From positions 62,001 through 126,000 of the forward strand of contig NZ_JASXSH010000011.1 of the NCBI RefSeq assembly GCF_030315745.1: 64,000 nt of DNA. Direction: 5' to 3'. Below are positions 6,866 through 35,877 of the stretch, piece by piece. Below the pieces are notes generated by a model, which had not been told where the DNA came from, ran no database searches, and worked only from the letters and a program-made list of their open reading frames with translations. The position numbers and the translations under genes are program-made. The DNA is from Gordonia heveisoli. Lineage in GTDB: Bacteria > Actinomycetota > Actinomycetes > Mycobacteriales > Mycobacteriaceae. Every line of letters starts with the position of its first letter. Position 1 is the first letter of the stretch.

Positions 6866-7270
6866 GTGACGAGTATTCAGGTGGCCGACGAGACCTTCGT
6901 CGCCGCGGCTCCCGCGCTGGTCGCCGACGTGATCGGCGAGCGCGCCAACTGGCGTCGCTGGTGGCCCGACCTGCGGTTGACGGTCACCGAGGACCGCGGC
7001 CCACAGGGTATGCGGTGGACGGTCGACGGCCCGCTGACCGGAACCATGGAAATCTGGTGCGAGGCAGTCCTCGACGGATTCGTCCTCCACTACTTCTTGC
7101 ATGCCGAACCGGTCGCGTCGCTGCCGGACGCGCCGGAGGCACGCGCGGACGTCCTCGCCGAGGCCAACAAGTTCCGGCGGGTGGCGGGCAAGGTCATGTC
7201 GTTCGAGGTCAAGGACCGGTTGGAAGCCGGCCGGGAGATCGGTGCCCCGGCCGTCACGGCGGAAGGGTGA
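6866..7270 (+). CDS. SRPBCC (polyketide cyclase-like) protein
   Basis: This is a predicted 134-residue protein with an SRPBCC/START-like fold of unknown ligand, matching the Rv2186c position. The pattern of an N-terminal strand (SIQVADETFVAA), WRRWWPDLRL and a C-terminal amphipathic helix fits the fold. I start it at GTG 6866, which gives VTSIQVADE; an earlier in-frame start at 6815 would add 17 residues without evident function. It lies 3 bases before a second SRPBCC gene and is probably cotranscribed with it. Confidence 0.75.
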   Translation: MTSIQVADETFVAAAPALVADVIGERANWRRWWPDLRLTVTEDRGPQGMRWTVDGPLTGTMEIWCEAVLDGFVLHYFLHAEPVASLPDAPEARADVLAEANKFRRVAGKVMSFEVKDRLEAGREIGAPAVTAEG

Positions 7271-7273
7271 GCA

Positions 7274-7711
7274 ATGGCCGACCACACCGAGCGTGACATC
7301 GTCATCAATGCGGATGCGGCCGACATTCTCGCCGTCATCGCCGACTTCGAGCACTATCCGGACTGGGTGGGTGCGGCCCGCGAGGTTCAGGTGCTGGCCA
7401 CCGACGCGCAGGGTCGGGCGAGTGAAGTTCGCTTCGTGCTCGACGCCGGTGTCCTGCAGGACACCTATGTGCTGGCCTACGAGTGGGATCGGGACGGCAC
7501 CGGGGTGTCGTGGCGGTTGGTGTCTAGTGACCTGCAGGCCGATCAGCGCGGCCGGTACCTCCTGTCCGAACAGGTGCCCGGTTCGACGAAGGTCACCTAC
7601 GAGCTGATGGTCGACCTGGTCGTGCCGTTGATCGGTGCCCTCAAACGCCGTGCGGAGAAGGCGATCACCGACGCGGCCCTCAACGACCTCAAGAAGAGGG
7701 TCGAAGGCTGA
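7274..7711 (+). CDS. SRPBCC (cyclase/dehydrase) protein, TB16.3-like
   Basis: This 145-residue protein is the counterpart of Rv2185c (TB16.3). Features of the fold include the N-terminal ERDIVINADAADILAVIADF block, the YPDWVGAAREV segment typical of coenzyme-Q-binding Coq10-like members, and the C-terminal helix ending LKKRVEG. The ligand is unknown. A GGAAGGGTGA ribosome site overlaps the stop of the previous gene. Its own stop probably overlaps the start of the next gene. Confidence 0.85.
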   Translation: MADHTERDIVINADAADILAVIADFEHYPDWVGAAREVQVLATDAQGRASEVRFVLDAGVLQDTYVLAYEWDRDGTGVSWRLVSSDLQADQRGRYLLSEQVPGSTKVTYELMVDLVVPLIGALKRRAEKAITDAALNDLKKRVEG

Positions 7712-8955
7712 TCGACCTCACACCCATCCACCTGGTACTCGGGCCGGGCGGGTCGGGGGTATCGGTGGCGGCAGCGGCCGCTGCGGCCCAACGGCCCCGG
7801 GCCCGGGCGGTTCAGCACACCCAGATGACCGCCCCCGACCGGCATACCCTGCTGATCACTCTCGACCGACGATCGCCGATCACCTCGTGGGCCGGGGTCT
7901 ACCGGCAGCCGGGGGAGGCGGTCGCGGTCACCGCTCACCTGCACCTGCTGACGCTGGAACGACTCGACCTCACCGAGCAGACCTGGTCGGCGTTCGTCGC
8001 GGTGCTCGCCGACACCCTCGGACAGTCGCGGATCGCGTTACCCGGCCTTGGACGGGTAGCCGAGATCGATGCCGCGGAACTGACCGCGCTGCCCGGGATC
8101 GAGGACTTCCTGCTGTTGCGCCGCATCCGCGACGAAGCCGTCAGCGGCCAGTGGCAGCGCATCGTCGTCGACTGTTCGGGTATCGGCGACCCGAGTGCGC
8201 TCCTGCGTTCCGGTGCTGTCCTGGCCCAGGCCCTCAACCGGTTCTGGCCCCGCCATCGGCGGTTGGCGGTCGCCGCCGAACGCCCGGCCCTGGCGGCGAT
8301 GGTCGCCGCGGTGGACTCCATCGACCGCGACTGCGCCGATATCGCCGAGGTGTTCACCGATCCGCACGCGGTTGCCGTCCATGTGGTGCTCGGCGCCGAC
8401 GACCGCGGCCGGCGGCTGGCGCAGCCGATCCTCGCCGACCTGGATCTGATGGGATTGCCGCTGGCGTCGGTTCTTGTCAACGAGTCGGCGGTGGGCGCCG
8501 ATCCAGCCGGCACCGTCGAACTGACCGCCCACCTCGACGAGGTGCTCACCGTCCGCACCGACGACCCGACGGTTGCGATCACGGTGATCCGGCGCTCGCC
8601 GGAGCCCATCGACCGGGTCGCGCGGTTACGCAAACTCGGGGTGAGCTTCGCGCCTCCGCACGGTCGCGCGCAGGGCTCGTCGTCGGCGACGGTGGCGGTG
8701 CTCGGCGGCAGCGGACTCGACACCACCTTCGAATTGTCCTGGCCGCAACTGCTCCCCGAACCCGATCGGCTGCGTCTGGGGCGTAGCGCCGACGATCTGC
8801 TCGTGACGGTGTCGGGGTTCCGGCATCCGGTGCGCCTGCCGTCGGTGCTGCGGCGGTGCCAGGTCGTGGACGCGGCCTGGGATGGCGTACGGCTGCGGAT
8901 CCGGTTCGTACCCGATCCGGCCGTGTGGCCGCAATCGGGAACCGGCCGGGGCTGA
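7708..8955 (+). CDS. Degenerate P-loop (ArsA/MinD-like) protein
   Basis: This cytoplasmic protein has 415 residues if started at CTG 7708. The only ATG/GTG start near the front is GTG 7765, but that would cut off the segment HLVLGPGGSGVSVAAAAA, which looks like a Walker A region. CTG 7708 overlaps the upstream stop as CTGA and has AAGAGGG at 7694-7700, so I prefer it. The loop reads GPGGSGVS, lacking the Lys-Thr of GKT, so ATP hydrolysis may be lost. The position matches Rv2184c. The N-terminal half has ArsA/MinD-like strands such as IVVDCSGIGD. The C-terminal part resembles an ArsA HSP20-like domain. Confidence 0.65.
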   Translation: MIDLTPIHLVLGPGGSGVSVAAAAAAAQRPRARAVQHTQMTAPDRHTLLITLDRRSPITSWAGVYRQPGEAVAVTAHLHLLTLERLDLTEQTWSAFVAVLADTLGQSRIALPGLGRVAEIDAAELTALPGIEDFLLLRRIRDEAVSGQWQRIVVDCSGIGDPSALLRSGAVLAQALNRFWPRHRRLAVAAERPALAAMVAAVDSIDRDCADIAEVFTDPHAVAVHVVLGADDRGRRLAQPILADLDLMGLPLASVLVNESAVGADPAGTVELTAHLDEVLTVRTDDPTVAITVIRRSPEPIDRVARLRKLGVSFAPPHGRAQGSSSATVAVLGGSGLDTTFELSWPQLLPEPDRLRLGRSADDLLVTVSGFRHPVRLPSVLRRCQVVDAAWDGVRLRIRFVPDPAVWPQSGTGRG

Positions 8956-9096
8956 GCGTGGCGCGACCGCCGCGGGTGGCCTGGCTACCCTGGATGCGTC
9001 AGACCCCGGTCACCGGGTAGCGTTTTGCACCTGAGCCGGGGTGTGAACCTCGCGGTGACGGAAACGACCTTGCCTCCGGAAGGAGTACGCCCGGCG

Positions 9097-9492
9097 ATGA
9101 CCACGGACGACGAACACGCCGCCGGAGAGGATCCGGCGGGCGCCGACAGCGGAGATCCGGTCCGGGAACTACTTCTCACACTCGCCAATCAGATCGATCA
9201 GATCGCCATGTTGTTCGGTGGCGGACGGGGTTCCGGGCCGACCGTCGGGTTCGGCGGTCTGGATTCGGTCGGGGTGGGGCTGGCCGACGTGTCCGGCGAG
9301 ATCTCTGGACTGTTCAGCGAGATCGGCGACCTACTCGCCCGTCTTCTGGCCGCTCTCATCGCGGTGCTGGAATCCATTGCTGCCGCACTGCGCTCGGATC
9401 CGATCGCCCCGCAGGCGCCCCGACAGTACGAGCCGATCGAGGTTCGGATCAGCCCCGGTGACCGTAGCGCCGGTGGGCCAGATGAGCGGTGA
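9097..9492 (+). CDS. Small hypothetical protein (Rv2183c position)
   Basis: This 131-residue protein has no recognised domain. The centre (about residues 55-100) is a Leu/Ala/Ile-rich amphipathic helix, with acidic residues before it and a Pro-rich tail. The ATG at 9097 is supported by GGAAGGAG at 9078-9085. It lies between the P-loop-like gene and the ROK kinase, 6 bases before the latter, in the same conserved run as in mycobacteria. I assign no function. Confidence 0.7.
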   Translation: MTTDDEHAAGEDPAGADSGDPVRELLLTLANQIDQIAMLFGGGRGSGPTVGFGGLDSVGVGLADVSGEISGLFSEIGDLLARLLAALIAVLESIAAALRSDPIAPQAPRQYEPIEVRISPGDRSAGGPDER

Positions 9493-32466: not shown

Positions 32467-32542
32467 GACGCCGGGCGGATGTCGGTCCACCCGGAACCGA
32501 TTATGAAGTCGTGCAAGGCGCAGATGAGGAGGCGTGGCCAGG

Positions 32543-34180
32543 ATGTCGTCTGACCGTCGTCGCCGGGGCCCGCTGCGCCCCCGGACCGTGACACCGATCC
32601 CGGTCGGGGTGCTCTCGGCCTCCACCGGCGCCCGGCTCGACCTCATCGGCACCGCCGACACCGACACCGTGGTGACCGGGGTGACACTGCGCGCCCAGGA
32701 CGTGCGTCCGGGCGATCTGTTCGCGGCGCTGCCCGGCGGCAGCACCCACGGCGCCCGGTTCGCCGATCAGGCCGTCGCCGCGGGTGCGGTCGCGGTGCTC
32801 ACCGATCCGGCCGGACGTGCCGAACTGGCCGCGGTCCTCCCGCCGGAGTCCTCGCTGGTCGTTCTGGTACATCCGCAGCCCCGTACCGTGCTCGGCGCGC
32901 TCAGTGCGCGCATCTACGGGAATCCGTCTCAGCGGCTCAAACTCATCGGCATCACCGGAACCTCCGGCAAGACGACGACCGCCTACATGGTCGAGGCGGC
33001 TCTGCTCGCTGCCGGCCTGTCGGTCGGACTGATCGGCACGGTCGAGACCCGCGTCGACGGCGTCGCCCAGCCAAGCTCGCTGACCACTCCCGAGGCACCG
33101 ACCCTGCAGGCGATGCTCGCGGCGATGGTGGAGCAGGGGGTCGATGCGGTCGTGATGGAGGTGTCGAGCCACGCGCTGTCCCTGGGCCGGGTCGACGGCG
33201 CACATTTCGCGATCGGCGCCTTCACCAACCTGTCGCAGGATCATCTGGACTTCCACCACACGATGTCGGCCTACTTCGACGCCAAGGCACAGCTGTTCCA
33301 CCCGGCGTCGCCGACGCATGCGGTGCGCTCGGTGATCTGCGTGGACGATGACTGGGGGCGACGGATGGTCGAGGTGGCCCGGACCAAGGTCGCGGGCGGG
33401 GGCACACAGACGCCCCCGGTGACCGTTTCCACCGGTGAGGTGCGTGCGACCTGGCAGATCGAATCCGTGGCGGTGGCACCGGACGGAAGTTCGCAGGCCG
33501 TCGTTGCGGGTCCGGACGGTGCTGCCGAACTCGTGGTACCACTGCCCGGCCGATACAACGTCGCCAATGCGTTGCTGGCCGTCGCGACCGCGACCTGCGC
33601 CGGTGTCGACACGGCCACCGCGGTCGGGGCGATCGCATCGGTGACCGTGCCCGGCCGCCTACAGCGCATCGACCGTGGACAAGACTTTCTGGCACTTGTG
33701 GACTACGCGCACAAGCCGGGGGCGGTGCAGGCGGTTCTGGGTACCTTGCGCAGGCAGGCGCAGGCCGCCGGGGCCGGCGGGCGGGTGGCGATCGTCATCG
33801 GCGCCGGTGGCGACCGGGATATGGCGAAGCGTCCGCTGATGGGGGCCGCCGCCGCCCGGGGAGCCGAACTGGTCATCGTGACCGACGACAATCCGCGGTC
33901 GGAGGAACCGGGCGCCATCCGCGCCGAGGTGAGCGCCGGGGCGCGGGCGGTGGCGACGTCGGATCGTCCGGCCGGAGCGCAACCGGTCCAGGAGATCGGG
34001 GACCGCGCTGCGGCGATCACCGCCGCGATCGCCTGGGCGCGGACCGGCGACACGGTGCTGATCGCGGGTAAGGGACATGAGACCGGTCAGGAGATCGACG
34101 GAGTGAAACATCCATTCGACGACCGGGAGGTCACCGCGGCGGCTCTGGACGCGCGGCAGACGAACGGCGCCGACGCATGA
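32543..34180 (+). CDS. murE: UDP-MurNAc-tripeptide synthetase MurE
   Basis: This 545-residue ligase adds the third amino acid, here meso-diaminopimelate, to UDP-MurNAc-L-Ala-D-Glu. The ATP loop GTSGKTTT is at about residues 139-146, the central [10 protein letters not shown] block is present, and DDNPRSE near the C-terminus is the motif that binds mDAP. Rv2158c is the counterpart. The AGGAGG at 32527-32532 fits ATG 32543; the GTG at 32534 is too close to it. The stop overlaps the next start as ATGA. Confidence 0.95.
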
Positions 34181-34701
34181 GCGCGACGGTGACGGTGATC
34201 CGCGCGGCGGTGCCGTCGTCGGTCGACGAGGTCCGCACCTTGCTACGTGAGCTGGCGCAGGCCGGGGCCACGGCACGCGCCGAAGCTACCGCGGCACGCG
34301 CCGAAGCTACCGACCGCACGATCCGGACCTGGGCGTTCATCGGCGACCTGACCGTCGAGGACGGGCTGAGTGAGAACGAGCGCGTCGTCGAACACGATCG
34401 CATCGGCCGACAGGCGGTCCGGCTGGCCGTCGACAAGACGCTGTGCATCGGGGACTCACGAGCCGTGCATGCGCTGCACCAGGGTGCGGTGATGGAGGGC
34501 TCCTGGGGTGAGGAGGCCGCGATCGTGGCTTCGGCGGAGGCGGCCGGCCGACTGCTGTGCGACGATGCGAGCTGGCGACCCGGTGACGGCGACGTGGTGC
34601 TGGTGGCGGCGAACTCGGCGTCGGTGGCGGGCCTGCTCGACACGGTCGCCGGTGACCTCGCATACACACTGAACGACCATCGCGGCAATGCTGCCCGGTG
34701 A
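34177..34701 (+). CDS. MurF C-terminal-domain-only protein
   Basis: This 174-residue reading frame occupies the slot of murF but has only its third (C-terminal) domain. The frame from VTVI onward follows MurF domain [37 protein letters not shown] and [15 protein letters not shown]. There is no UDP-binding domain or GKT ATP loop, and about 1 kb is missing between murE and mraY compared with a normal murF. The DAYNANP signature is replaced by RAAVPSS. A 21-base tandem duplication (34271-34311) encodes [14 protein letters not shown]. The ATGA overlap with murE suggests it is translated. A full murF must exist elsewhere. Confidence 0.75.
34271..34312 (+). repeat. 21-base tandem duplication in the murF-like gene
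   Basis: A 20-base string at 34271-34290 is repeated exactly at 34292-34311, a period of 21 bases (seven codons), duplicating ARAEAT in the protein. Confidence 0.85.
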
Positions 34702-34782: not shown

Positions 34783-35877
34783 ATGACCCAGATCCTCATC
34801 GCGGGTGCGATCGCGATCGCCGTCTCGATCCTGCTCACCCCGGTGCTCATCAAGGTGTTCACCCGGCAGGGCTTCGGCCAGGAGATCCGGGTCGAAGGAC
34901 CGCAGAGCCACCAGACCAAACGGGGCACCCCGTCGATGGGTGGTGTCGCGATCATCGCCGCACTGTGGCTGGGCTACTTCGGATCCCACCTCGTCGGTCT
35001 GATCACCGGTGACGGAAACGGACCGACGGCGTCGGGTCTGCTGGTGCTCGGGCTGGCCACCGTCCTCGGCGGTGTCGGCTTCCTCGACGACATCATCAAG
35101 ATCCGCAAACACCGCAACCTGGGACTGAACAAGACCGCCAAGTCGATCGGGCAGTTCGGCGCCGCGATCATCTTCGGCGTGCTGGTACTGCAGTTCCACA
35201 ACGATTACGGCTATGCGCCGGCCAGCACCAACCTGTCCTACGTCCGCGACATCAACGCCATTTCGATGGGATCGGTCGTCTTCGTCATCTTCTGCTGGCT
35301 GGTCGTCGCAGCCTGGTCGAATGCGGTGAACTTCACCGACGGACTCGACGGTCTGGCCGCGGGCTCGATGGCGATGGTGCTCGGTTCCTATGTGCTTGTG
35401 ACCTTCTTCCAGTTCGTCAACGCCTGCCAGGGCGGCGCCAAGCCGACCCGGGAGATCTCCACCGCCTGCTACCCGGTACGCGACCCGCTCGACCTCGCGA
35501 TCATCGCGGTGGCCGGTGGCGGCGCGTGCCTCGGGTTCCTCTGGTGGAATGCCGCACCGGCGAAGATCTTCATGGGTGACACCGGATCGCTGGCCCTCGG
35601 CGGCATGCTCGCCGGCCTGTCGATCTGCACCCGCACCGAACTGCTCGCCGTCATCATCGGTGCGCTTTTCGTCGCCGAGATCGTGTCGGTGGTCATCCAG
35701 ATCGCGTTCTTCCGCACCACCGGCCGTCGCGTGTTCCGGATGGCCCCGTTCCACCACCACTTCGAGCTGGGGGGCTGGGCGGAAACCACGGTGATCATCA
35801 GATTCTGGCTACTGACGGCGATCGCCTGCGCCCTCGGCCTGTCGCTGTTCTACGGCGAGTTCCTCGCCAATGGCTGA
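34783..35877 (+). CDS. mraY: Phospho-MurNAc-pentapeptide translocase MraY
   Basis: This 364-residue membrane enzyme with about 10 spans moves phospho-MurNAc-pentapeptide from UDP to undecaprenyl phosphate, making lipid I. GTPSMGG, the FLDDIIK and [12 protein letters not shown] Asp motifs and the FHHHFEL histidine motif are all present. It corresponds to Rv2156c (murX). It begins 82 bases after the murF-like gene and overlaps murD by 8 bases. Confidence 0.95.

Follow-up and report, generated by a model that had tools for sequence, protein, structure and literature searches.

An orphan MurF domain III encoded beside murE in Gordonia and related genera, a putative docking subunit kept after replacement of the MurF ligase

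In Mycobacteriales, the native MurF (UDP-MurNAc-tripeptide--D-Ala-D-Ala ligase) is encoded in the dcw cluster between murE and mraY. The motifs NDxYNANP, MxELG and KxS are signatures of the MurF active site and have a catalytic role. When such a resident enzyme is replaced horizontally, its gene usually vanishes entirely. Replaced enzymes of this kind, fusions of Mur proteins and Mur-ligase homologues working in other complexes are all already known. In Bordetella, MurE and MurF form a natural bifunctional polypeptide (PMC6420597; PDB 8f5d), which binds MurG (PMC6420597). PAP11, a nearly complete MurE-like protein, is a subunit of the plastid-encoded RNA polymerase (PDB 8w9z, 8r6s). In M. tuberculosis, the Mur synthetases contact FtsZ, FtsW, FtsQ, Wag31 and SepF, MurF contacts PknA and PknB in vivo, and NamH contacts MurF alone (PMC3605390).

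We analysed a stretch of 64,000 nucleotides from Gordonia heveisoli (contig NZ_JASXSH010000011.1, positions 62,001 to 126,000), called here the window. Between murE and mraY it holds a 525-bp gene with an intact frame (ATG start, 174 codons plus stop), whose product resembles each of the systems above and differs from each of them. With the native MurF it shares the fold of domain III, the murE/mraY locus and the residues HDxxGRxxVR and QGAxMEGSWGxE, but it is without the N-terminal and central domains and has lost NDxYNANP, MxELG and KxS. In some other Gordonia species it is fused to MurE, so that, as in Bordetella, MurE is followed by MurF-derived sequence in one polypeptide; however, the Bordetella MurF is complete and active, whereas the Gordonia fusion carries domain III alone, with no catalytic residues. 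Like PAP11 it would be a Mur-ligase homologue serving as a subunit elsewhere, but PAP11 belongs to a transcription complex while the orphan is a single MurF domain encoded in the dcw cluster. As in other horizontal replacements, a foreign-type ddl-murF pair supplies the activity and the resident-type ddl is gone, yet here one resident domain stays under selection. Our search of literature open without subscription found nothing on Gordonia with MurF nor on a truncated or second MurF, and no description of a MurF domain that stands alone, has lost the active-site motifs and is kept clade-wide after enzyme replacement. The features of the locus are as follows, in window coordinates.

34177 to 34701, + strand: orphan MurF domain III gene, 174 aa (ORF and translation, hhalign, structure model)
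34177 to 34180, + strand: ATGA overlap between the murE stop codon and the orphan-domain start (sequence)
34201 to 34224, + strand: residues 9-16 (RAAVPSSV), at the place of the catalytic N-D-x-Y-N-A-N-P of MurF (alignment)
34270 to 34320, + strand: 21-bp tandem duplication in the domain's first helix (TRF, 2.4 copies, score 88)
34393 to 34515, + strand: residues 73-113, kept segment HDxxGRxxVR...GxxR...QGAxMEGSWGxE, proposed docking surface (conservation comparison)
34606 to 34614, + strand: residues 144-146 (AAN), at the place of the catalytic K-A/G-S of MurF (alignment)
32534 to 34180, + strand: murE, coupled gene upstream and fusion partner in other species (NF001124 and TIGR01085 above cut-off; fusions in 12 loci)
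34783 to 35877, + strand: mraY, next gene downstream (TIGR00445 above cut-off)

No Pfam model matches the orphan protein. The NCBIfam model TIGR01143 (murF) gave a weak match over residues 49-145 (E=0.003), its 16.5 bits standing against a curated cut-off of 288.6 bits, and a profile search of the sequences of solved structures returned a chance-level match only, to an unrelated protein (E=0.029). When 18 orthologues were compared profile to profile with the full MurF of Nocardia and Rhodococcoides by hhalign, they matched with a probability of 99.9 and E=5.9e-33, and this match was limited to MurF positions 353-484, which correspond to domain III. An AlphaFold2 model built from 54 sequences was confident nearly end to end (mean pLDDT 94.2, pTM 0.90). 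Its best nine solved neighbours were all MurF domain III (Z 12.8-14.2), the next matches being MurC (Z 11.5) and MurE (Z 10.5), and Foldseek alone also ranked MurF first (E=1.2e-3). The orphan protein is therefore the equivalent of MurF domain III alone: it has the fold and the sequence kinship of a MurF ligase, and it lacks the score, the two other domains and the catalytic residues of one.

The initial annotation, made from the letters alone, had described the 174-residue frame as MurF domain III only, and the hhalign alignment, one of the checks it proposed, bears this out together with the structure comparison. It had also stated that the UDP-sugar and ATP domains are missing and that the frame is intact and ATGA-coupled to murE; we found indeed that the unbroken ORF begins at the domain III boundary, with neither the N-terminal (UDP-substrate) nor the central (ATP) domain, and overlaps murE. 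Its reading of RAAVPSS in place of the DAYNANP signature holds, IRAAVPSS aligning with INDSYNANP in the profile-profile comparison, and the 21-base duplication that it reported was recovered by TRF. This duplication (an ARAEATA repeat) extends the domain's first helix, which is variable in length, and was present in none of the aligned Gordonia congeners.

Exactly one copy of the orphan domain was detected in 59/59 Gordonia genomes searched, single-contig genomes among them, and the order murE - domain - mraY was found in the 25 Gordonia loci checked for all three genes. The same truncated arrangement, again with a single copy, is present in Williamsia and in four further genus-level groups (g23, g26, g28, g32). 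It thus spans at least six genera, an extent that the initial annotation had not foreseen. A full MurF with a DAYNANP-type motif occupies the locus in Nocardia, Rhodococcoides and the other genera examined. In a tree of MurE and MraY, the truncated loci formed one clade, sister to group g46, which has a full MurF, and one change from full to truncated is enough to explain them; the branch uniting the truncated clade has a support of 81, not starred, and the wider clade including g46 has a support of 96, starred. Matches to named loci and the position of the window on this tree both point to the genus Gordonia. The dN/dS of the orphan domain was 0.06-0.28 (16 pairs), and in the same pairs it was 0-0.08 for mraY and 0.06-0.20 for murE, the murE value including the domain in fused species. 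The domain is clearly under purifying selection, which in most pairs is weaker than on its neighbours murE and mraY. Having lost its catalytic residues while remaining under such selection, it counts as a Mur-ligase derivative that no longer catalyses but has kept a function. Comparison of the locus in relatives and a test of selection had both been suggested beforehand, and their outcome upholds the claim of an intact frame without decay. Chance, misassembly, a deletion in a single strain and recent decay are ruled out by the conservation in 59/59 congeners.

As the initial annotation had anticipated, a full-length MurF, and only one, is encoded on another contig of this genome (4.46 Mb, 65 contigs), at 24193-25425 of C24, scoring 386.6 bits against the cut-off of 288.6. 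Exactly one full MurF above the curated cut-off was likewise found elsewhere in 47/47 truncated genomes checked. In the 7 genomes checked that have a full native MurF, the native MurF alone was above the cut-off. One genome with a full dcw MurF (G062) has a second MurF-like match below the cut-off (C5:62042-62974, E=1e-35, 124 bits), which is possibly another Mur-ligase family. The MurFs encoded elsewhere in the six truncated groups formed one clade (support 99, starred), which joined the MurFs of family f43 (100, starred) far from the native dcw MurFs; f43 and f58 belong to another class of the same phylum, and two f58 sequences, the best matches, were left out of this tree. In every case examined, the acquired murF adjoins ddl in divergent orientation, and the same divergent ddl-murF pair was present in the four genomes of the foreign class that were examined.

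The replacement MurF came with a foreign ddl, which had not been foreseen either. Each of 13 genomes searched contained one ddl above cut-off, and no resident-type ddl was found in the orphan-domain genomes among them. The acquired-type ddl shares about 49-59% identity with the ddl of the foreign class and 40-43% with the main ddl of native-MurF genera. In the genome of the window, the sole ddl (6968-9429 of locus L227, G000:C24:16000-30738) is of the foreign type, like the acquired murF, its divergent neighbour. Another genome (G038) carries a second ddl-like gene at C1:4422030-4422950, whose 238 bits are slightly under the curated cut-off. The most parsimonious account is that the ddl-murF pair was acquired horizontally once and that the resident ddl, along with most of the resident murF, was then lost. 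This history is well supported, and the wider distribution of the native type suggests the direction of the transfer.

A column-by-column comparison covered 56 orphan domains, 55 dcw MurFs of the native type and 25 acquired MurFs. NDxYNANP, MxELG and KxS were found in 100% of the acquired and native MurFs and are lost in the orphan domains. A second set of residues (D74, G77, R78, V81, R82, G92, R95, Q102, G103, E107, G108, S109, W110 and E113) is common to the orphan and native proteins and absent from the acquired ones. The whole segment HDxxGRxxVR...GxxR...QGAxMEGSWGxE shows no variation among the orphan domains and almost none in native MurF, and acquired MurF lacks it; EGSW(G) belonged to the extraction pattern, so that its perfect score is partly by construction, while none of the other positions played a part in extraction. 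Two native full MurFs (L265 and L261) have EGSFDN and EGSWNN in place of EGSWG, meaning that the segment is not strictly invariant beside catalysis. In two small-genome genera of the same family (g19 and g21), a full MurF is present and the orphan-domain profile found no match, which suggests that the retained segment has diverged in them. EGSWGEES also occurs in the MurF of family f18, of the same class, and the second residue set is therefore older than the truncated clade. The retained residues are a lineage-specific set already carried by the native MurF, a point that the initial annotation did not contain. Its proposal of a retained non-catalytic role agrees with the loss of the catalytic residues, the invariance of the other set and purifying selection. 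In the model of the orphan, the lost motifs are located in the loops after strands 1, 2 and 5, at the edge where folds of this kind usually have their active site, and EGSWG is located between helix 3 and strand 4. Judging from the strand order only, the EGSWG surface would be on the edge opposite the catalytic loops.

The tree includes 56 truncated loci. In 12 of them the domain is fused to the MurE C-terminus, and in the other 44 it stands free; the fused state changed at least four times. An open frame of at least 676 residues, the size of a fusion as judged by length only, lies at the locus in 18/59 Gordonia genomes. A 4-base NTGA overlap with murE and an in-frame start were seen in 40/44 free-standing loci, a tally in which locus L045 was entered as overlap not shown. 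In the predicted structure of the G. hirsuta fused protein, the MurE part matches mycobacterial MurE structures, and the terminal helix of MurE (507-525) is followed by the domain's first strand (528-534) with almost no linker; this model (pLDDT 91, pTM 0.78) is of moderate global confidence and defines no docking onto MurE. What follows MurE in the fused species is domain III only and no complete MurF, and in the window murE and the domain are separate genes. Repeated fusion is a classic hint that two proteins act together; like the coupling, it is indirect. Because of the coupling and the repeated fusion, MurE would be the first candidate partner of the orphan domain. MraY, whose sole argument is synteny, is a possible partner, as are MurG, NamH and division proteins; the initial annotation had named MurE or MraY.

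Altogether, we consider it fairly probable that the orphan is a non-enzymatic docking subunit of a MurE/dcw precursor complex, kept after a horizontally acquired enzyme took over MurF catalysis. An ancestor shared by Gordonia, Williamsia and the four other groups would have gained a divergent ddl-murF pair, the donor being a bacterium of the same phylum but of another class. D-Ala-D-Ala ligation would have passed to this new MurF and the resident ddl would have been lost, while the resident dcw murF would have shed its UDP-substrate and ATP domains and retained domain III because of a second, non-catalytic task that was beyond the foreign MurF. This task would most likely be docking: a surface formed by helix 2, helix 3 and the loop with EGSWG would hold a partner belonging to the cytoplasmic precursor assembly that the dcw cluster encodes. 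Homology, intactness, distribution, selection, the pattern of residue loss and retention, the foreign-type ddl-murF pair and the fusions are all seen in the data, and the docking role and its partner are our interpretation of them. The in vivo contacts of M. tuberculosis MurF (PMC3605390), the binding of MurG by the Bordetella polypeptide (PMC6420597) and the confident, complete fold also speak for docking. In its broader form, to which we give an even chance, domain III of the MurF of this class has a second non-catalytic function kept as stubbornly as catalysis, the foreign MurF providing catalysis and the orphan providing docking to MurE or to a membrane assembly.

The same conserved surface could also serve regulation. 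PknA/PknB or the hydroxylase NamH would then influence precursor synthesis by way of the domain, as a platform for docking or phosphorylation, and MurE would be a mere genomic neighbour. The contacts of all M. tuberculosis Mur ligases with PknA/PknB and of NamH with MurF only (PMC3605390) speak for it; we nevertheless hold it to be rather unlikely, as it fails to predict the repeated fusion to MurE, and EGSWGEES in family f18 shows that the residue set is wider than this family. A further alternative makes the domain an accessory subunit of the acquired MurF, which it would modulate or complete in trans; this would fit the occurrence of both together in every truncated genome checked. It is judged very unlikely because every motif is present in the domain III that the acquired MurF itself possesses; relatives of this MurF in the other class share its architecture, and no fusion of the domain to the acquired MurF was seen.

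Could the frame be kept merely as a spacer or a translational link between murE and mraY? Its NTGA coupling to murE and its site in an operon-like cluster would suit such a passive remnant, but purifying selection acts at the protein level, about 15 residues are invariant in a confident fold, and the domain persists in fused forms that lose the murE stop, which makes this highly improbable. A passive spacer is contradicted by selection and by the invariant residues. As for an assembly artefact or a recent deletion in one strain, the one point found in its favour is that the assembly is a draft of 65 contigs, and the same arrangement in 59/59 Gordonia, single-contig genomes included, and in other genera leaves it next to no credit.

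The docking reading bears on a long-standing open question, the existence of a working cytoplasmic Mur-ligase complex. Here, two conserved residue sets of MurF domain III have been naturally split into two genes, both kept across several genera. The orphan offers a handle for finding its partner: it is small, non-enzymatic and probably soluble, and about 15 of its residues are invariant. That the domain was kept beside murE and repeatedly fused to MurE suggests that catalysis was not the only task of MurF; if this is true, the corresponding MurF surface of other Mycobacteriales would be a site of interaction that has gone unrecognised.
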